IMG/VR virus record: IMGVR_UViG_3300045974_000132
Coordinates: 155,740 to 219,739 of that record
Source: a virus
Length of the DNA stretch: 64,000 nucleotides
Direction: 5' to 3' (one strand)
The translations under genes and the position numbers were made by a program. Of the stretch, positions 15,278 through 55,165 are shown one piece after another (position 1 is the first letter of the stretch; every line of letters starts with the position of its first letter). The notes beneath the pieces are model-generated. The model was not told the DNA's origin. It saw only the letters and a program-made list of their open reading frames with translations, and ran no database searches.

Positions 15278-16372
15278 TTACTCGTCGTCATCACCCCAAT
15301 CTTCGTCATCTTCTTCATCATCTTCTTCATCATCTTCTTCGTCGTCGGAGTCTTCATCATCCTCGTCATCTTCTTCGTCGTCGTCGGAGTCTTCATCATC
15401 CTCGTCATCACCTTCTTCGTCATCTTCTTCATCATCTTCTTCGTCGTCGTCGGAGTCTTCATCATCCTCGTCATCACCTTCTTCGTCGTCGGCATCTTCA
15501 TCATCGCCGTCTTCGTCGTCATCACCTTCTTCTTCGTCGTCCTCGTCTTCTTCCTCAGCAGCCTTACGACCTCGCTTGGCTTTCGGAGCAGCGACTTCAG
15601 CAGCAGACGCATCTTCTTGGGAGAAGACTTGAACTTCGACGCCTGCATCATTGTTGGTGTTGATGATAACGGTTTCGCCATCAGTCGTCGTAACCTGAAT
15701 CAGGCCGCCTTCCAGTTGCGAAACTTCGCCTTGATACTCGGCCAGCGTGACCGTCTTGTAAACGTACAGCGTTGCGTCTTCACCTTCGTTGCCCTTGATA
15801 GAGACAACATCCTTCAGCGGGAAGGTAGAGACTTGGACACGCTTGCTGCGTTCCTTAGCATGACGGAACACGACATTCTCGGTAGAGAACGAAACGAGTT
15901 GACCTTCAAGCTGAACAACCAGGCGGCTGACAAGAGCGATTTGCTGACCTTCGTCAACGCCCTTGGAAGCCTTGGAACCGCGACGCGGAGCCTTGGTAGC
16001 TTTTTCGGTTGCAGCAGCGCCTCGACGCGAAGACTTCGCCGGAGCAGCTTTTGCAGTACGTGTAGTCTTGGCAGGAGCTGCCTTTGCAGCAGCGGCACCA
16101 CGACGGCCACGAGCCGGCTTTTCTTCAACTTCTTTTGCAGCACGACGACCACGTGCCGGCTTTTCAGCGGCAGCAGCCTTGCTTGAGCGAGTAGAGCGTG
16201 CCGGCTTTTCAGCAGCGGCAGCAGCGCCACGACGACCACGAGCCGGTTTTTCTTCAACTTCCTTTGGTGCGCGACGACCGCGAGTAGAGGTCTTTTCAGC
16301 GGCAGCAGCGCCACGACGGGTTGAGGTCTTTGCCGGGGCAGCCTTGGAACTACGGGTTGATGCACGAGCCAT
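15278..16372 (-). CDS. Basic-core-acidic tripartite protein (364 aa)
   Basis: ATG 16372. Residues 1-140 are basic repeats of EKPARGRR / STRSSKAAPAK type; residues about 140-265 form a compact beta-rich domain; residues 275-364 are almost entirely Asp and Glu with imperfect DDEDSDDDEEDDEE repeats (DNA repeats at 15300-15540). Similar EKP-R-R repeats occur in the recombinase and the 18995-20050 protein. The charge layout suggests nucleic-acid binding with self-association (inference). An ACTGTAAATA element lies 54 nt upstream. Confidence 0.75.
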   Translation of the reverse strand: MARASTRSSKAAPAKTSTRRGAAAAEKTSTRGRRAPKEVEEKPARGRRGAAAAAEKPARSTRSSKAAAAEKPARGRRAAKEVEEKPARGRRGAAAAKAAPAKTTRTAKAAPAKSSRRGAAATEKATKAPRRGSKASKGVDEGQQIALVSRLVVQLEGQLVSFSTENVVFRHAKERSKRVQVSTFPLKDVVSIKGNEGEDATLYVYKTVTLAEYQGEVSQLEGGLIQVTTTDGETVIINTNNDAGVEVQVFSQEDASAAEVAAPKAKRGRKAAEEEDEDDEEEGDDDEDGDDEDADDEEGDDEDDEDSDDDEEDDEEDDEEGDDEDDEDSDDDEEDDEDDEDSDDEEDDEEDDEEDDEDWGDDDE

Positions 16373-38158: not shown

Positions 38159-40474
38159 CTACATCATACTGTTTCCAACGCGCACTAATTCAAGCTCCAT
38201 ATTCTTCCGAGTAACATTTACGCATTCGTCAACCCACGGAAGATGCTTCTTATTACTGACCAGAACTGCCGTCGTCTTGACCCCTGGAGGTTTCTTGGCC
38301 TTAGTAGCTTCACTGATAGTCCCATATCCATCTGACACAAGTAGGCCTTGAGCATTGAGCCACCCATACTTCAAGCAGACATCAAAGAAGGCTTGAAGCG
38401 CATCATCGAAGTCAGTGCCACCACCGCTCGGTGTAGATAGAGCTTGAGCCAATTCAGCTAGAGTTGGAACGCGCTGCCCTTTCTCCCAAACGTGTATGCT
38501 ATCGACGCCTCCTGAGAACTTGATTAAGGCAATGCCTCGCTTAGACAGGTAGAGCTTATGAATCATTGACAGACAGAAGCCTGCGGCCATTTCATAATAA
38601 GAGCCACCCATAGAGCCTGAACAATCTAGCATCAGTACAATAGGACCACGACGCGGGTCTAGGTCTGTGTATTGAAGCAAATTGCCGTTAGCTAAATCGA
38701 CTAAGAATGACAGTCGCGCAAAGTCACTACCCAATCGGCCTAGTTCGGAAGCAGGAAGTCTAGTTAGGTCTGTACCGAACGTAAGAGTACGATCAATCAT
38801 ACCTTCATCATTCGGTTTGAACGAAGGCTTGACAATAAGCTTAGCCCCGAAGTCATGGGCTGACTTCAGAATAGCTTTGAAGATTTTGGGGTTGGAAGCA
38901 AGCGTATTAAGAGTTACAAGCTTACCGCCGCTGCCTCTACCTGTCCCTTGAGAAGGGGAATCTTCATCAGGCATATCTCCGCCACCTAAAGCATCAACGT
39001 CAATATCTTCATCGTCGTTAGGAGCAGCGTCTGATCCAGCAGACTGTTTTCCTTTTGAAGGTTTTTCAGTATCCTCTGAACCATCCTCTGTTTCGCTATC
39101 GGTAGTTTCAGAGTTCGCATCGTCTTCTGAATTTTCAAAGTCTTCCTGATCGTCACTGTCCTGTTCACCCTTCTGCGATTTAGGTAGCTTTTCTTCGGCA
39201 TCTGCTTCGTCATTCGCATCATCAGGTGCAAAGTCTTTAGCGAAGGTTTTAACATTGGCATACAGGTCTTCAATGTCAGCTAAGAACTCGCCCGCGTTTT
39301 TGAGAATGAAGCGAATCAGCTTTATCAGTTCGTGCCCACGATCATACCTAGGTGTATCAGATACTAGGTTTATCGCAGATGATAGACAACCTGCTTTAGG
39401 ATCAAAGCGTTTAACACGAACAGAGGGAATTGCTTTAAGCAAGTCAGGAAGCTTAGGTAGAGCTTCCAAAGCAGATTGCTTTTCCCGTAGTCGTTTAATA
39501 CGGTGAGGAATACGATCAATCGAATCCTGAAGCTCACTCTGGGCAGACAAAGAATACTTACGCTTTTTACGAAGCGTCACCAACTTCTGCTTAAGGTCGA
39601 TTCTGCGCTCTTTGGCTCTAGAGATCAACCTGTCAATGTAGATGATCCTCTTCTCTACAATCTTGTTGGCTTCATTCAGGGTGTTGACTAAATGAACAGC
39701 CGCAAACATTGCAAACTCAGGGTCGTCAAAAGCATCTATCTTGGTAAGAGTAGGCACTATCGAAAGTGTTTGGGTGTGCGATAGAACTCGATCAAAGCTT
39801 GAGTGAATCCACCTAGGAGACATTTGATAGTGGCGCACCCACAGATTACGCACGACTACATCGGGATTGATATTGGGCAGATTCTGAAACTTGAATTCAG
39901 GGTAGTGCTTCCGAAGTTCTGAATAGTAAGCATCCTCATACTTGAACTTCAAAATCTCAGGATGCAAAGCCTTAATGCCTAACGCATCACGCAACTGTTT
40001 AGCGATCTTGATAACGATAGGGTGACGCATGTGACTGTTAAAATGCTGAGGTAGCTTCGACGGTAGAAGGGCACAGATTTGCTCAATCGAAAGAGCGTCA
40101 TACTTAATAGAACGCAAGCCCTTGAACTTCACTGCCTGCACATCATACCCAAAGAACTCTCCTAGGTATTGATTGATCTTGTAGTCAGCAGCCGTATTCA
40201 CAGTGTTGGCTCTATACACATGGAGGATTGATTCATCCTCAACTACTTCGTGCATAATCTCATGTGCTACATACACTTCCAGATTGAAGGTATCTTCATC
40301 AACGCATTTGTCAGTCAGCTTAATCCCTACAGCATCAATACAAGCTACAGGAAAGCCGCAAGTTTTATGATCGACTATCTCAACAGGTAGGAACAGCACA
40401 TCAGGCCCGAACTTTTGTGCCAGGCGCTGAAGTGCTGCTTCTACTGAACGCATCCTACGTTCATACGATTTCAT
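38159..40474 (-). CDS. Metallopeptidase-like plus VWA domain protein (DUF2201-type)
   Basis: 771 aa from ATG 40474 (AGGGC). The N-terminal domain has HEIMH at residues 71-75 (HExxH zinc motif). A helical middle and a long Asp/Glu/Ser-rich linker (about 415-510) follow. The C-terminal VWA domain has DCSGSMGGS around 615, SGGGTDFDDAL and VSDGYG, a complete metal-ion-dependent adhesion site. Domain order matches DUF2201 proteins, which pair with MoxR ATPases as here (9-nt gap). Such pairs act as chaperone-like machines for protein or metal-centre assembly; the phage target is unknown. Confidence 0.88.
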   Translation of the reverse strand: MKSYERRMRSVEAALQRLAQKFGPDVLFLPVEIVDHKTCGFPVACIDAVGIKLTDKCVDEDTFNLEVYVAHEIMHEVVEDESILHVYRANTVNTAADYKINQYLGEFFGYDVQAVKFKGLRSIKYDALSIEQICALLPSKLPQHFNSHMRHPIVIKIAKQLRDALGIKALHPEILKFKYEDAYYSELRKHYPEFKFQNLPNINPDVVVRNLWVRHYQMSPRWIHSSFDRVLSHTQTLSIVPTLTKIDAFDDPEFAMFAAVHLVNTLNEANKIVEKRIIYIDRLISRAKERRIDLKQKLVTLRKKRKYSLSAQSELQDSIDRIPHRIKRLREKQSALEALPKLPDLLKAIPSVRVKRFDPKAGCLSSAINLVSDTPRYDRGHELIKLIRFILKNAGEFLADIEDLYANVKTFAKDFAPDDANDEADAEEKLPKSQKGEQDSDDQEDFENSEDDANSETTDSETEDGSEDTEKPSKGKQSAGSDAAPNDDEDIDVDALGGGDMPDEDSPSQGTGRGSGGKLVTLNTLASNPKIFKAILKSAHDFGAKLIVKPSFKPNDEGMIDRTLTFGTDLTRLPASELGRLGSDFARLSFLVDLANGNLLQYTDLDPRRGPIVLMLDCSGSMGGSYYEMAAGFCLSMIHKLYLSKRGIALIKFSGGVDSIHVWEKGQRVPTLAELAQALSTPSGGGTDFDDALQAFFDVCLKYGWLNAQGLLVSDGYGTISEATKAKKPPGVKTTAVLVSNKKHLPWVDECVNVTRKNMELELVRVGNSMM

Positions 40475-40483
40475 TGCAATGCC

Positions 40484-41950
40484 CTATTCTGTTTTGGCAA
40501 GGGAAGAAACTTCAAGAGTGATACCTGCTTTGATGAACGTCTGCTTCAGGGTAGTTAGCTTGTGGTCGCTATACCAATAATTGGCCTTACGCTTGTGACG
40601 GAAGCCAAATGCACGAAGCTCCTTGCTAGACCATGACATGGTTGAAGACTGAGAAGCTTTGATCTGAATCCCTGCCCCTACATGCACACGGATGATACGG
40701 AACACTTTGCGCTCTTTGATGATATGAGCGAAAGACATACCGATAGACTTGATTTCAGCAGCAGCTTGCCTAGCATACCGACTACTAAGCTTATTGACCT
40801 CTGCATACAATTTCTTCAATTCCGAAAGCTTGCTGCGAAGGTCACCGCCTTGTCCAATAGTCTCACGTAGGGCATGAGCGCGTTCCAAGTAAGTCGAAAT
40901 CTCAGCGGTGTCGCCCGACGTATTGGAAAACACAATAGACTGAACCTTACTGACTTGCGCAGGCTCATTCCAGAAGATGTTTGCAAGCACCTCCAAGTCT
41001 TTGTTGATAATCTCAGAACGACCGTCGAGAATAGCAGCAGCTTGCATAACACGGAAGGACTTGATAAATCGACGATCACTGATTTTGATATTCAGAGCAT
41101 ACTCAACCTGACGGCGAATACGCATAGCCATATCACGCAGCTTATCCGGTAGCGTTACAGCACGGGTAGTCTTACGAAGTTGCTCTACCTCAGGCGAAGT
41201 AAGATAGTGAGTTTCAATCAAGTCTGGGATGTCGAGAGACTTAGCAATCAGCTTGCGGACATTCTCTTCGTCCTTCAGGTAGGCTACATTGAAGCGTAAC
41301 AGAAAGCGATCATACAGTGCTTTCAGAATAGGGTCATTAGGCAGTTCGTTTGATGCTGCGAAAGTTGCCTTGACCTTACACTTGATAATCCCATTATCCC
41401 CGTCACGGAACAGATGCTCATTGATGATCCAGAGCAAAGGATTTAGGACAGTAGCATTTGATTTGAAGATTTCGTCGAAGAACAGAATCTCACAATCGGG
41501 GGCATACCCAATGTATTTTGTTTGTTGTCTGCCCTGAGCTAGAGCCGGGATGTCCGTCGGCCCAAAAATCTGATCAGGTTTTACAGTCTCACTCATGAGG
41601 ATGTCAAAGTTCGACAAGCCTAGTAGGGAAGACGCTGTTTGAATATGGAATGTCTTTGCAGTACCTACGTCACCGAAGAACAGAGCATTCGAGCCAGATA
41701 GAATACACAGTAGGATACCGTCTGTTTCATCGTGCCGTTCATACACGAACTCATTCAAGACAGAACGAACCTTCTGCAATTTCTCAAACAAAGGGTTGTC
41801 GTACTTGACAGGGACTTCCTGGACAGCTTCTTCAAAAGCAGCAGCTTCCTTAACAGCTTTCTCAGCACGTTCCGCCTTAGTCGGTAGCGGCTTAGAGGGC
41901 CGTAACGATGGACGGTTGGAACTACGCAAAAGAGGTTTAGGTAGAGGCAT
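40484..41950 (-). CDS. MoxR-family AAA+ ATPase
   Basis: 488 aa from ATG 41950. Walker A GDVGTAKT at residues 93-100, Walker B CEILFFDEIF about 145, sensor 1 ATFAASNELP about 195 and an arginine-finger region (LYDRFLLRF) follow MoxR/RavA. It is co-transcribed with the VWA partner. The first 40 residues are a basic Pro/Arg-rich tail. Expected to hydrolyse ATP as a hexamer and remodel a target presented by the VWA protein. Confidence 0.92.
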   Translation of the reverse strand: MPLPKPLLRSSNRPSLRPSKPLPTKAERAEKAVKEAAAFEEAVQEVPVKYDNPLFEKLQKVRSVLNEFVYERHDETDGILLCILSGSNALFFGDVGTAKTFHIQTASSLLGLSNFDILMSETVKPDQIFGPTDIPALAQGRQQTKYIGYAPDCEILFFDEIFKSNATVLNPLLWIINEHLFRDGDNGIIKCKVKATFAASNELPNDPILKALYDRFLLRFNVAYLKDEENVRKLIAKSLDIPDLIETHYLTSPEVEQLRKTTRAVTLPDKLRDMAMRIRRQVEYALNIKISDRRFIKSFRVMQAAAILDGRSEIINKDLEVLANIFWNEPAQVSKVQSIVFSNTSGDTAEISTYLERAHALRETIGQGGDLRSKLSELKKLYAEVNKLSSRYARQAAAEIKSIGMSFAHIIKERKVFRIIRVHVGAGIQIKASQSSTMSWSSKELRAFGFRHKRKANYWYSDHKLTTLKQTFIKAGITLEVSSLAKTE

Positions 41951-42061: not shown

Positions 42062-42274
42062 TCAAAGAGTGAATTGACCTTCGGGAGGTTTCCACTTTGG
42101 GTCTGGCTGAAAGAACTGAGTTGAAGAGTAATTTGTCCAGCCGATCTTTGTTTTAAGGCCGACCGGACAGTTCAAAGTCTTTGCTAAGTGGCTACCGCGA
42201 TCTTTCCCACAAAGCAAACACTTATGGCAAATATTACTCTTCGTCTTCGTCGTCTCCGCTTTCTTCTTCGTCAT
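42062..42274 (-). CDS. Zinc-knuckle protein overlapping the recombinase tail (70 aa)
   Basis: ATG 42274 lies in another frame within the acid-tail codons of the recombinase gene, with GGGTAACG before it. CHKCLLCGKD...LNC is a Cys-x2-Cys-x2-Cys knuckle, and the rest (WTNYSSTQFFQPDPKW) looks like genuine protein. A 41-bp overlap with the upstream gene is unusually long for this window. Confidence 0.6.
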   Translation of the reverse strand: MTKKKAETTKTKSNICHKCLLCGKDRGSHLAKTLNCPVGLKTKIGWTNYSSTQFFQPDPKWKPPEGQFTL

Positions 42275-44033
42275 CGTTACCCTTGTCACTATCTTTACCA
42301 CCCTGTAGAGTGTATTCAACAAAGAGGTCGATGCCGCGTCCGTTAGCGAGTTGAGCGAAACACTTGTCCCGAATCTTGACAGGCTTCATACCCACAGAGG
42401 CACAGATTTCCTTAATCTCAGCAGTCTTACCTAAGATAAGTTTCTTGAAGTCCATCCAAGACATAAACTTCGTAGCTTCGTTACCTTCAAACATCAGCTT
42501 CATCTTGCGACGAGGGCCAGACACTTGACCGGTGAACTTCAGATACTGGAATACGTCGAATACTGGATCGAAGCCTTGTGCATTGCCCTTAGCATCAGTA
42601 ATCCATAGACGCAGATACATTTCCAAGTACGGACGGCTGAGCTTGTTCTTGAATGCCCGAACATGCAAGTAGCGATAGTTGTCCATACCTTTACCGTAAG
42701 TAGCGGAACGCTCAGATTCAATCTGGCCTTCACCCTTGACAGTCTCACCAAGGTGCTTACTAACAGCAGAGAGGGCGCGAGAGGTATGCTTCAGACGAAC
42801 ATCGCTGTAAAGCTTTAGTGCTTCACCGCAGGGCTCATATTCAGGATTACCCATCATCACCATAGGACGCAAACGTAGCTGATTGATACCTAGGACAGCA
42901 ATACGCTTACCCTTCATCTTACCCTTGACTCGACGAAGTTGCTCGGCAAACATACGAGCTTGAACACCGATAGAGCTATTCGGGTCATCAACGTCTTGTG
43001 TCTCAGGAAGCATAGCAGGATAGCTATCGACCAAAACCATAGCTTGCAGAGTACCGTCTTTAGCAGGGATGCGCCATAAGCCAGTCTTCTTGAAATAGTT
43101 CTTGTCGTACTTATCACCTACGATTGCTTGATTGGCTTTGTGAACCATCGACTTGCCCTTGACCATCTTTTTGGACTCGTAGATGTAATACCAGTTTTCA
43201 CCGATCTTCTTCTTATCAGGCAGCATACGCTGAAGCTGTGCCAGATAGTCGAAGAACTTTTCAGCGATAGCTTCTGAGTTGTAACGAACGCGAGGCTTGA
43301 CAACCCAGTTGCCAGTCTTTTCATCCCGAACACCAAAGATGGATTTTACGTCAGCTTTAACGCCCATGTTGCGCATGATGTTTTCGATGTAGTCAGGAGT
43401 AGCACTACCCTCGAAGTCAAAATACGACAAGATGGGAACATCAGAGTTCAGAGCCGCTGCAAGCATTGTTACCGCGTCAGTCGTCTTACACGACTGCTCT
43501 TGCCCGAAGTTTGTGTACCAGCCAGCAGTGATACCGCCACCTAGCACCAAGTCCATTGCAAGCGTACCTGTACTTTGGCGAGAATCGCTACCGTCCATTG
43601 AAGAAGCAGACAGACCGATGTGACGTTCGATTTCATCCAGCTGATTGTCAAGGTGGGCATAAGGATCAAAGTATTCAGTAGAAGCAAGAGCTTCAGCTTT
43701 GGTTTTCTTACGACCAGATACTACTACCTCTTCACCAGTTTCTGCTTTTGCACCGCGAGTTCTACGAGTAGGCTTTGTTTCAACAACTTCCTCAGCAGTT
43801 TTCCGAGAACGCCTTGTGGGCTTCTTCTCTTCAACCACTTCCTTAGAGGCCCGAGTAGTTCTACGCGCAGGCTTTGCTTCCTCAACAGGTGCTTTTGCAG
43901 TACGAGTTCTACGAGTAGGCTTTTCTTCTACTTCTTTAGCAGCCCGAGTACGACGCGCAGGTTGAGCTTCTTTTGTAGCAGCAGCAGAAGTACGACGACT
44001 ACGTGCGGGTGGGGCTTCAGATTTTCTAGCCAT
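42234..44033 (-). CDS. uvsX: RecA/UvsX-family recombinase with basic N-tail and acidic C-tail
   Basis: 599 aa from ATG 44033 (AAGGGAAG). Residues 1-112 are basic repeats (PARRTRAAKEVEEKPTRRTR type). The core starts about 115: Walker A GQEQSCKTT (177-185) has Cys where most have Gly, just as T4 UvsX has Phe; LVDSYPAML is Walker B; VLGINQLRLRP...PCGEALKLYSDVRLK matches RecA loop L2 and beyond. The end is acidic (DDEEESGDDEDEE). It should form filaments on single-stranded DNA for strand exchange. The long cationic extension is unusual for RecA. Confidence 0.9.
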   Translation of the reverse strand: MARKSEAPPARSRRTSAAATKEAQPARRTRAAKEVEEKPTRRTRTAKAPVEEAKPARRTTRASKEVVEEKKPTRRSRKTAEEVVETKPTRRTRGAKAETGEEVVVSGRKKTKAEALASTEYFDPYAHLDNQLDEIERHIGLSASSMDGSDSRQSTGTLAMDLVLGGGITAGWYTNFGQEQSCKTTDAVTMLAAALNSDVPILSYFDFEGSATPDYIENIMRNMGVKADVKSIFGVRDEKTGNWVVKPRVRYNSEAIAEKFFDYLAQLQRMLPDKKKIGENWYYIYESKKMVKGKSMVHKANQAIVGDKYDKNYFKKTGLWRIPAKDGTLQAMVLVDSYPAMLPETQDVDDPNSSIGVQARMFAEQLRRVKGKMKGKRIAVLGINQLRLRPMVMMGNPEYEPCGEALKLYSDVRLKHTSRALSAVSKHLGETVKGEGQIESERSATYGKGMDNYRYLHVRAFKNKLSRPYLEMYLRLWITDAKGNAQGFDPVFDVFQYLKFTGQVSGPRRKMKLMFEGNEATKFMSWMDFKKLILGKTAEIKEICASVGMKPVKIRDKCFAQLANGRGIDLFVEYTLQGGKDSDKGNDDEEESGDDEDEE

Positions 44034-44058
44034 TATCACTTCCCTTAAATGAGTAAAG

Positions 44059-44096: not shown

Positions 44097-45434
44097 TTAA
44101 AAAGGAATGTCGTCCTCTTCATCCTCGTCATCTTCATCACGCGACTTACGAGCAGGCTTCTTGGCAGGAGCCTTCTTAGGAGGAGCCTTCTTTGCGGGTG
44201 CGGCCTTCTTTACACCACGCTTGGGAGCGGGTTCATCATCCTCGTCGTCTTCGTCATCCAGATCGTCGTCTTCATCATCGTCGAGGTCTTCATCATCCTC
44301 GTCGTCATCCTCGTCATCTTCATCACGGGAAGAACGCTTCTTGGAAGGAGCCGCTTTCTTTGCAGTAGCTTTCTTACCACGAGCAGGCGGTTCATCATCC
44401 TCGTCATCATCGTCGAGGTCTTCGTCATCCTCGTCGTCATCCTCGTCGTCATCCTCGTCTTCGTCACGCGAAGGACGCTTCTTGGAAGGAGCCTTCTTAG
44501 GAGGAGCCTTCTTTGCGCCGCGCTTAGGGGCCGGCTCGTCATCTTCGTCATCGTCGTCGAGGTCTTCATCATCCTCGTCGTCTTCGTCTTCATCATCGTC
44601 GAAGAATTCTTTACCCTTCTTTGCGGGAGCACCCTTCTTTGCAGGCGCTTTCTTCTTCTTACCGCCTAGGTCATCCCCGTCATCATCGTCATCACCTTCG
44701 CCGTCAAATTCTTCGGCACCGACGATTTGCATAGAATCAAGTTGCTTCTTAGCAATAGCAGGGCTTTCAAGACCCATTTCCGTCAACAGCTCCGGATTCA
44801 GATCATAGACCAGATACCCGAGTTGTTCTTCAGTCAGCGGAGACTTGTCAGCTAGGTTGATCTGATACTTGTCGCCACCCTTTGCTTTTTCATCGTAGCG
44901 GATATTAATGTCAATACCGTACTTAGCATCACTGATATGGAACGTCTTCTTAGCGCCCTTGATAACACGCTTGTTGAGTTCCTTCAGGTCTTGAATCTTA
45001 CGCATCAAGGTAGCAGTAATACGCATTACCTTAACAGGAGTCCAAGAGTTGCTAGACAGCTCCTTGAAGCCTGTCTTCTTTTCTTCCGGAGTAATACGAG
45101 CCTTACCCGGCTTTTCTTCTTCAACAGAGCGAACGATAACGTTCGCCAGATAGTTGACAGAAGTTTGGCTTTCAATAGTGCAGTATGGGCACTTGCAACC
45201 CTTCTTGCTCTCTTCCGTGATCGGGTCGAAAGAAACGCACAGCTTAGGAATCTTAACTTCGCGCTTAGTCTTACCTGCGAGAATATTAATCCAGTGAGTC
45301 TTCATTGCCAAAATGTCATTCGGCATAATACGAAGTTGAACCCACTTACCGTTCGGCAGTTTCAAAACATCGACAAGGTCTTCCAGTCGAGCATGGTCAC
45401 CGCGTGTTTGAGGCTTGGCATCACCTAATTTCAT
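44097..45434 (-). CDS. gp32-like single-stranded-DNA-binding protein with bacterial SSB tip
   Basis: 445 aa from ATG 45434 (AAGGAG-type CAAGGAG). Residues 1-220 are the core with a CKCPYC zinc-ribbon half (C-x-C-x2-C), typical of T4 gp32-like proteins. Residues 245-445 alternate acidic blocks (DDDEDEDDEDDEDLDDDDED) and basic blocks (APKRGAKKAPPKKAPSKK) four times. The last residues DEEDDIPF equal the E. coli SSB C-terminal tip (DDDIPF), which recruits host replication and repair proteins. An ACTGTAAATA promoter is 40 nt upstream. Confidence 0.85.
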   Translation of the reverse strand: MKLGDAKPQTRGDHARLEDLVDVLKLPNGKWVQLRIMPNDILAMKTHWINILAGKTKREVKIPKLCVSFDPITEESKKGCKCPYCTIESQTSVNYLANVIVRSVEEEKPGKARITPEEKKTGFKELSSNSWTPVKVMRITATLMRKIQDLKELNKRVIKGAKKTFHISDAKYGIDINIRYDEKAKGGDKYQINLADKSPLTEEQLGYLVYDLNPELLTEMGLESPAIAKKQLDSMQIVGAEEFDGEGDDDDDGDDLGGKKKKAPAKKGAPAKKGKEFFDDDEDEDDEDDEDLDDDDEDDEPAPKRGAKKAPPKKAPSKKRPSRDEDEDDDEDDDEDDEDLDDDDEDDEPPARGKKATAKKAAPSKKRSSRDEDDEDDDEDDEDLDDDEDDDLDDEDDEDDEPAPKRGVKKAAPAKKAPPKKAPAKKPARKSRDEDDEDEEDDIPF

Positions 45435-45468
45435 TACAACTCCTTGTATTAAAATAGTACAACATTAA

Positions 45469-46581
45469 TTATTTACAGTTACGTGTAGGTTGCACTGAAG
45501 CAGCCGCTACTAAAGCACTTTCAACACCTTTAGTCGGCATGAAGCCTAACTGTTTCTTCATAGATCGAAGCATTCTGATCTTTTCCTTTCTAGATATATA
45601 CTCGTCAAGGTCGAGATACAAACGAGCAATACCTAGATTGTCTGCACTTTTTATAAGATAGAGAAGAGTGGCAGACTCTTGGTCATCCTCTATCTGTCGA
45701 TCAACACCCTGACAACCTACTAAGAAGTGCTTTAAGTCTATAGCACCTTCATCTTCGTTGTCACTCATTACGCTATCCAGGCTTACACTGAAGTTTACCT
45801 GAGACGCTTTAGTACCTTGTACATTCCTCTTTTGCAACTGAGGCATTGTATAAGCGATACCGTACTCATGCCCATAGTTGGCATTTGAATACGTTTGAGC
45901 ATTTAGAATCCAATAGTTTATGTAACTGGTGAGAGCTCCTTTACTACTATCGTATTTATCAATAGCTTTAGTAATTGCCGCCATTAAGCTTTGATAAACG
46001 TCTTTGAAGTCAAAGTTTCCAGTCTTTTGTTTGCAGAACGCATGGGCTTGCTTGTAACCATGCTTTAGATACTGCTCCACAATGTTATTTCTAAAGGTAT
46101 ACGCGAGTTCAACGTAGTGCCTACATATGTTCAATGTAGAAAACAAGTGGTCGCGTGTAAATCCTACGGTACGTTCTATAGCCTGCAACTTAAGGTCTAG
46201 GGTGGTTCGCTCCATGTGCTTGGAGCAAGTAAGGTATTTGGTATATAGATCCGTGTAATCTTCTGTTTCCGAAAGGAAGTTCACAAGGAAACTATATACA
46301 AAGCTGCGTTCAATCTTTGCTTTAGATAAAAGGTCTATCTTCCGATCAAGATCAGTAGTGGTAAGTACATTGCACAGACAGACAATGAATACTTCCCGCT
46401 CTAGGGCAGAGATTTTTCTTTTCTTGTTTGTTGCAGCTACACCTAATAGATGGGCTACTTGTATATCAAATACCTGACTATGGCGAATAATGGGTTCAAG
46501 ACCCTTATAGATAAGGAAATCAAGAGCTTCCTGTATCTGCCCACCGGTCAGGTTTGAAGTGTCAATGGGCTTTTTATCCAT
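45469..46581 (-). CDS. Sigma-70-like transcription factor (late sigma)
   Basis: 370 aa from ATG 46581. Residues about 190-250, FDFKDVYQSLMAAITKAIDKYDSSKGALTSYINYWILNAQ, follow sigma region 2 (D-x-x-Q-x-x-x-x-G-L-x-x-A-I-x-K-F-D-P-x-x-G-x-x-F-x-T-Y-A-x-x-W-I). Regions 3 and 4 are not clear. T4 gp55 is a comparably reduced sigma directing late promoters. It lies among genes preceded by ACTGTAAATA, so it is the best candidate reader of that element (inference). Confidence 0.78.
   Translation of the reverse strand: MDKKPIDTSNLTGGQIQEALDFLIYKGLEPIIRHSQVFDIQVAHLLGVAATNKKRKISALEREVFIVCLCNVLTTTDLDRKIDLLSKAKIERSFVYSFLVNFLSETEDYTDLYTKYLTCSKHMERTTLDLKLQAIERTVGFTRDHLFSTLNICRHYVELAYTFRNNIVEQYLKHGYKQAHAFCKQKTGNFDFKDVYQSLMAAITKAIDKYDSSKGALTSYINYWILNAQTYSNANYGHEYGIAYTMPQLQKRNVQGTKASQVNFSVSLDSVMSDNEDEGAIDLKHFLVGCQGVDRQIEDDQESATLLYLIKSADNLGIARLYLDLDEYISRKEKIRMLRSMKKQLGFMPTKGVESALVAAASVQPTRNCK
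45474..45481 (-). promoter_or_regulatory. ACTGTAAATA promoter element
   Basis: AACTGTAAATAATTAATG on the minus strand, directly after the sigma gene stop and 40 nt before the single-stranded-DNA-binding gene start. Confidence 0.52.
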
Positions 46582-54059: not shown

Positions 54060-54076
54060 AGTTGTGTTATCCAGAT

Positions 54077-54084
54077 ACTGTAAA
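54077..54084 (+). promoter_or_regulatory. ACTGTAAA promoter element, plus strand
   Basis: ATACTGTAAAAGTAATG in the divergent gap between nuclease and primase genes. The start of the plus-strand replication operon. Confidence 0.48.
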
Positions 54085-54106
54085 AGTAATGTACTTGATT
54101 CAAATT

Positions 54107-55165
54107 ATGGTCGATGTAAAAATGGCACAAGACATAGACAACTTCGATGTGATTAGGGACGCTCTTCATCAGTATGGAGGACGGCAGAAGCCTGCAGGCG
54201 ATTGGAGAATGATTCAATGCCCATTCCCTGACCACAATGACGGTGGACCTTCATGTGGCGTGTATATGCGGCGTGACGGTAGAGCTAAATTAGGATTCTT
54301 CAACTGTTTGGGCTGCGGGAAGAAAGGCGGATGGAATACATTAGCAGGCGTTGCAAATCTCCCGACAATCCAAGAATGGAATAATGCGGAAAAAAGCGTC
54401 GGTGAAGTAATCTCTAAAGCAGATGAAGAAAGTTTGCTGGGTGATCAAAGTTTGACAGTACGCCGAGTGCTTAAAATAATGAAGTGTGAAGAAGCGCAGC
54501 CCTGGCCTGAGAATATACCTTGGCGTGGATTCAAAGGTAATCTACTTCGCTTGGTAGGCGGTCTGATTATCAATGACTACTACAATGATTCTATTGCAGC
54601 TTTATTCCCTGTACGCATCGCAGGTAAAGTCAGAGGCGCTGTCAAAGCAGTATATGAGAAGAAGACTAAAGAGCAGTTAGGTTATATCACAATGTCAGGA
54701 GAATGGGTAAACAGTTACGGACTGTTCCCATTTGAGTTTACCAAGAAGTTGATTGATAAATATCATTACAACTTTGTGATATTGGTTGAAGGGCCACGTG
54801 ATGCACTTCGCTTATTGAAGCTCGGAATTCCAGCACTAGCTGTGTTAGGTGCAAATACGATCGGTCGTACTAAAGCTCTTTACATTAGCAGCTTAGGCGT
54901 AGATACATATTATGTTATGCCTGATAATGATATGGGCGGTACAAAACTGTGGAAGAATCTGAAGGAAGCTCTAGGTAGAAAGAAATGCAATGTAAAGCAG
55001 TTGAAGCTTCCGAAAGAAAAAGGAGAGGACGGTAAAGTAATAAAGATGGATCCGTTCAATGCCCCACGTGAGGTAATATCTAATTTAAAGACTCTGTTGA
55101 GAGAACGTCACGGCTGGGCTAATGAAGACATATATGCAATTCAGACGCGAAAGGTTGGTGTATGA
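54107..55165 (+). CDS. DnaG-type primase (CHC2 zinc and Toprim)
   Basis: 352 aa from ATG 54107 (ATG 54122 is also possible; no strong ribosome-binding site for either). Residues 38-70, CPFPDH...C-x2-C (CLGC), are the CHC2 zinc site. Toprim motifs are LVEGPRDALRLL (Glu228) and MPDNDMGG (Asp273, Asp275). Size equals stand-alone phage primases; no helicase domain is fused. It should make RNA primers for lagging-strand synthesis. Confidence 0.92.
   Translation: MVDVKMAQDIDNFDVIRDALHQYGGRQKPAGDWRMIQCPFPDHNDGGPSCGVYMRRDGRAKLGFFNCLGCGKKGGWNTLAGVANLPTIQEWNNAEKSVGEVISKADEESLLGDQSLTVRRVLKIMKCEEAQPWPENIPWRGFKGNLLRLVGGLIINDYYNDSIAALFPVRIAGKVRGAVKAVYEKKTKEQLGYITMSGEWVNSYGLFPFEFTKKLIDKYHYNFVILVEGPRDALRLLKLGIPALAVLGANTIGRTKALYISSLGVDTYYVMPDNDMGGTKLWKNLKEALGRKKCNVKQLKLPKEKGEDGKVIKMDPFNAPREVISNLKTLLRERHGWANEDIYAIQTRKVGV

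Follow-up and report, generated by a model that had tools for sequence, protein, structure and literature searches.

Which proteins, if any, are recruited by a phage single-stranded DNA-binding protein (SSB) whose last residues are those of bacterial SSB? The question is raised by a gene in the window analysed here, a stretch of 64,000 nucleotides within a virus record of 286,393 bases. The gene begins with ATG and its product ends DEDEEDDIPF, with a TAA stop immediately after EEDDIPF. An earlier note on this DNA had placed it at positions 44097-45434, which is correct; it lies on the minus strand, as reading on the plus strand is interrupted by stops. The features of the window that bear on the question are these.

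44097..45434, minus strand: phage ssDNA-binding protein gene, 445 aa (reading of the open reading frame; PHROG 15004, E 3e-79)
44718..45434, minus strand: predicted gp32-fold core, residues 1-239 (AlphaFold2 model, mean pLDDT 90.4)
44115..44699, minus strand: charged tail, residues 246-440, in which acidic and basic blocks alternate as far as the tip
44100..44114, minus strand: C-terminal tip DDIPF, residues 441-445, the same five residues with which E. coli SSB ends
45440..45445, minus strand: AAGGAG, likely ribosome-binding site, 5 nt upstream of the ATG
42234..44039, minus strand: UvsX/RecA-like recombinase, adjacent gene downstream (PHROG 97, E 3e-42; Pfam RecA)
45469..46581, minus strand: RNA polymerase sigma factor, adjacent gene upstream and a conserved neighbour (PHROG 17569, E 4e-95; Pfam Sigma70_r2)
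54062..55165, plus strand: DnaG-like primase, possible phage-encoded partner (Toprim and PHROG DNA primase matches)

The genes for sigma factor, SSB and UvsX likewise adjoin one another in PaBG, Yoloswag, JA11, AD1, Y3, Alexandra and others, while at least one gene intervenes among them in Lu11, HRDY3, Motura, the Vibrio phages and Voja-6. Just downstream of UvsX in the window, a MoxR-type AAA+ ATPase is encoded beside a VWA-domain protein (38159-41950, minus strand).

The body of the protein is that of a phage rather than a bacterial SSB. A profile search matched residues 7-382 to phrog_15004 (single-strand DNA-binding protein, E 3.4e-79), and Foldseek with the core model returned RB69 gp32 as top hit (E 2.9e-6) and the T4 gp32 complex as second (3.6e-4). 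VIA-align of the same model gave Z-scores of 12.1 and 11.5 for RB69 and T4 gp32, respectively, compared with 4.3 for the best unrelated chain. The family match and the predicted core together bear out the earlier description of the protein as gp32-like. Identity of the core to gp32 is nevertheless about 14% despite the shared fold, and the protein matched no Pfam family at E values up to 0.1, the gp32 profile PF08804 included, indicating that it shares its fold with T4 gp32 without being a close gp32 orthologue. Nor did it match the bacterial SSB profile PF00436 or, in the PHROG search, the gp2.5 profile, and a sequence profile search of the PDB found nothing. T4 gp32 has a zinc-binding Cys/His set. 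Putative zinc-site residues of the window protein are C66 and a CxCPYC motif; its two closest relatives have CPYD, and several family members are without the set. Judged by fold and family, the window protein would bind ssDNA. It shares the gp32 core fold with T4 and RB69 gp32, and both the fold and the family profile with the PHROG 15004 SSBs of the jumbo phages PaBG, Lu11, Motura and Yoloswag, which also have in common with it a charged tail and a nearby sigma factor and UvsX.

With bacterial SSB (PF00436), the core of which is unrelated to this gp32 fold, the window protein shares the DDIPF end on an acidic tail at the extreme C-terminus. The E. coli tip is MDFDDDIPF (PMC7145534), and the earlier note had equated EEDDIPF with it; the identity holds exactly for the five residues DDIPF, position -6 being Glu and not Asp. 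The ending DEDEEDDIPF-stop has the form of the SSB C-terminal peptide (SSB-Ct), i.e. an acidic run and then I/V/L-P-F at the very C-terminus. Such an end seldom arises by chance in these phages. In 24 related genomes (5,677,410 bases) DD[IVM]PF-TRR was found four times, one match continuing into a Trp codon, and the three that are followed by a true stop are all the last codons of the SSB gene (the window phage, Motura and IMG44765). From base composition about 0.085 occurrences of DD[IVM]PF with a TAR stop would be expected in the same number of bases. The looser pattern [DE][DE]xPF-TRR shows no enrichment in the 24 genomes, where it matched 7 times and its backward control 8 times, a result that we count against the reading of the tip as a docking motif. 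In IMG/VR, 70 contigs contain a run of five acidic codons that leads into D-[IVM]-P-F-stop, and one contains the permuted D-F-P-[IVM]-stop. That the tip is a by-product of acidic codon repeats was rejected, as ATT-CCT-TTT does not derive from slippage in GAY/GAR, and the 70 contigs against a single permuted control likewise contradict it. These sequence counts suggest that the tip is a selected docking motif of the SSB-Ct type.

To what extent the tip is kept among relatives depends on which relatives are considered. C-termini were taken from 23 of 91 matching phage records (the other 68, mostly Erwinia, were left out) and from IMG/VR relatives, giving a 41-member sample gathered by core sequence only and independent of the tip. 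Omitted from the corresponding 41-row tree were Ep032, which runs off its record, the near-copies SNUABM16 and Afa-NA1, duplicate IMG/VR loci and the fragment L058; PhiXhv-16 was retained despite a tail that looks frameshifted. Three members end in DD[I/V]PF, nine in Trp with acidic residues, four are plain acidic and 25 basic. The three carriers, i.e. the window protein, Achromobacter phage Motura and IMG44765, are not sisters, and on the maximum-likelihood core tree they need three changes, all forced by well-supported branches, with gain and loss indistinguishable. As 38 of the 41 are without it, the tip is not essential to the family.

Five of the 70 tip-bearing IMG/VR contigs belong to the window family, namely Motura, IMG44765 and three new members. 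Two of the new relatives are the closest known here to the window protein (core identity 64% and 55%) and end in DDDDDIPF and DDDDDVPF; the third (44%) ends in DDDDDIPF. Together with the window protein the three form a clade (support 97/91) in which four of four carry the tip, a retention count biased by the initial discovery of three of these members through the tip itself. In the 19-member clade beside it the tip is absent throughout. A core-pattern search built on the window protein and its two closest relatives recovered the contigs of those two and no tip-less one. The tips of the window clade use different synonymous codons, and among the tip-bearers of the family the only varying position changes from I to V, while the Pro, the terminal Phe, the acidic run and the free C-terminus are conserved. 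The earlier note had suggested that the tip may recruit host SSB partners, and had proposed that lack of conservation in relatives would speak against this reading, which finds partial support here: conservation fails across the family (3/41) and holds in the window clade (4/4, on the tip-biased count). Within PHROG 15004, then, most members end Trp-acidic, acidic or basic, and DD[I/V]PF is confined to the window clade, Motura and IMG44765. Among the matches listed for [LF]PF-type tips (at least 120 contigs) there was no clear family member and one weak match, L221, and a core search of GTDB genome contigs gave 209 pattern matches, none of them a relative. Two phages assigned to different host genera, Salmonella phage Sen-NF and Alcaligenes phage Afa-NA1, have an identical SSB; at 108 and 78 kb, their records are short by the standard of this SSB family.

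The same ending is found on proteins of other families. The scan covered 34 proteins from the 70 tip-bearing contigs, 29 of them from outside the window family and five from within; the rest were similar copies or cut fragments. Ten of the 29 outside representatives have SSB-labelled PHROG matches: three gp2.5-like, four to phrog_1192, and one each to phrog_44, phrog_7364 and phrog_14578 (weak). The other outside carriers include three primases or primase-helicases and one member of a family labelled DNA polymerase, and the remainder have no informative match. Pfam assigned PF00436 SSB to one of the 34, the Enc34 ssDNA-binding family to one and the gp32 family to two. Two proteins outside the window family's profile (L077 and L084) repeat the full plan of charged blocks and tip. 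This recurrence across SSB families indicates that the ending is typical of several kinds of phage ssDNA-binding proteins. The primases or primase-helicases (L066, L081 and L088) have an SSB-like end of an acidic run and [IV]PF.

What such an end could bind is known best from E. coli, where the pockets for SSB-Ct bury the terminal Phe, anchor its free carboxylate and contact Asp residues, and where removal of the Phe or a Pro-to-Ser change weakens or abolishes binding (PMC10164576); native SSB that loses the terminal Phe is lethal to the cell (PMC10164576), and the IPF motif is described as required for function (PMC10143822). The positions kept in the phage tips are those that SSB-Ct pockets need, and on this ground we interpret the tip as a putative docking peptide. 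On balance we lean slightly towards the window protein being a gp32-type SSB with an SSB-Ct-type tip that would dock host SSB-interacting proteins onto ssDNA coated by the phage SSB; host proteins appear likelier than phage proteins as its partners. In the mechanism that we propose, the gp32-fold core would coat phage ssDNA and the end of the tail, an acidic run followed by I/V-P-F and a free carboxylate, would serve as docking peptide. The coated ssDNA would display the ligand that RecO, Pol III chi, PriA, RecG and ExoI normally find on host SSB, and host restart, repair and recombination enzymes could thereby still access phage DNA once host SSB had been displaced. Support for host docking comes from the gp32 fold, the confinement of the tip to the SSB gene in the 24 genomes and its three separate placements in the tree. 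Also counted in its favour are retention in the window clade, the 70 contigs against one, the recurrence on unrelated SSB families and the failure to find a PF00436 SSB in any of the related genomes (0/24, the control search being positive in 10/14). Counted against it are the tip-less relatives (38/41), the phages' own Pol A (23/24) and UvsX, and the basic N-termini of UvsX.

If host docking is correct, its significance would lie in the fact that a phage SSB coating DNA takes away the landing site for host SSB-interacting enzymes. The host-type tip suggests that certain giant phages, despite having a polymerase of their own, continue to need the host's enzymes of restart and repair at their DNA.

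Because the phage encodes UvsX and Pol A, a phage-encoded partner is a live rival, which we consider doubtful yet quite possible. The tip would then dock UvsX, Pol A or primase of the phage itself, and its likeness to the host tip would reflect either a common chemistry or, on the phage protein concerned, a pocket of host origin. There are precedents. Like the window protein, the SSB of phage HK620 has terminal residues similar to those of bacterial SSB; it docks a recombinase, its last six residues, NDYPPF, being needed for binding to phage Sak4 (PMC5928155). T7 gp2.5 also has an acidic tail, and this tail acts on phage proteins, the polymerase and primase-helicase (PMC5686142), although gp2.5 is of its own type and not gp32-type. 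However, the HK620 end is merely similar to DDDIPF, whereas the window tip is exact over five residues, and an exact match to the host consensus (that of E. coli; the actual host may differ) exceeds the acidic-plus-aromatic end that a phage partner would require.

Gene content in the 24 related genomes bears on the same rival. Pol A is found in 23, and Pol B and Pol III alpha in none; tip-bearing phages are hence not distinguished by a missing polymerase. A review of jumbo phages likewise recognizes a group whose Pol A is T7-like (PMC7824862). Among relatives of host proteins known to partner SSB, the ExoI C-terminal domain and RecO were each found in 0/24, and RNase HI in five, none of them tip-bearing.

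Besides its position as the adjacent gene, UvsX offers a further indication of a phage partner. The window UvsX has a basic N-terminal extension (about 43689-44039) and an acidic C-terminus, and tip-bearing phages in general have a long basic extension there, with a Lys/Arg count of 18-62 in six of them against 0-19 in 37 other phages. This count covers 43 of 44 phages, IMG45971 having no UvsX in its locus, and the start codon of Voja-6 is doubtful. A rank test gives p 1e-4 with kinship ignored. The correlation is post hoc and reduces to three phylogenetically independent pairs, of which two agree, none disagrees and one is equal at a cut-off (20 Lys/Arg) picked after the data had been seen. 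We treat the basic extension as a lead towards a phage partner, or towards both kinds of partner at once, and it is possible that it is the charge partner of the acidic SSB tail.

It is improbable that regulation of DNA binding, through competition with ssDNA for the core, is the sole role of the acidic tail and that the terminal IPF is incidental. The acidic tails of phage SSBs can affect DNA binding (Enc34 ORF6, PMC5686142), and alternating charged blocks are a trait of the family. Acidity cannot, however, explain the terminal I/V-P-F, for which all three genomic occurrences are in the SSB gene, nor the 70 contigs against one permuted, nor the retention of the tip in the window clade. Less probable still is that the tip is a decoy that ties up host SSB-interacting proteins, or a disguise from a defence triggered by phage SSBs: Retron-Eco8 is triggered by phage SSBs and not by T1 SSB or host SSB, which cluster together, but its recognition is not tied to the C-terminus in the accessible part of the report (PMC12887533).

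The tail itself proved less distinctive than the earlier note had supposed. Four basic blocks are present as it described, and its four acidic blocks are five when the acidic tip is included. The notion that the blocks are special to the window protein was rejected, as repeated alternation is seen in 39 of 41 relatives, the exceptions being Voja-6 and Peetri. The long charged tail is probably disordered, and the DNA encoding it repeats in tandem at 44272-44600, with a period of 141.

HK620 already provides a phage SSB whose tail is host-like. New is an SSB that combines the gp32 fold with an exact match to five residues of the host tip, found throughout one clade (on tip-biased sampling) and in two other lineages; our searches of the open-licence literature turned up no phage gp32-type SSB described as having the bacterial tip. 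With its host-type, Trp-acidic and basic tips, this one family offers a comparative set on what SSB tails recruit. More speculatively, and in its full extent unlikely, the SSB end might be an exchangeable plug, in which the tip is switched between host SSB-Ct (DD[I/V]PF), Trp-acidic (e.g. WDDDDE) and basic forms, each choosing different partners, while core and neighbourhood stay constant. The host-type plug would then have been grafted convergently onto several unrelated ssDNA-binding folds, hijacking the host SSB interactome, here with the basic UvsX extension gripping the acidic blocks.

Two further tails were observed. In Xanthomonas phage PhiXhv-16 (L019:1953-3422) the SSB tail runs through poly-Asp into Met-Thr repeats, resembling a frameshift within a GAC repeat, so that its true C-terminus is uncertain. 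Elsewhere in the window, a protein encoded at 15278-16372 (minus strand) is built in a similar style: a small core (phrog_22271, of unknown function) is combined with basic Ala/Lys/Arg repeats and with a long acidic tail whose end, DEDWGDDDE, resembles the Trp-acidic tips of the PaBG-type SSBs.
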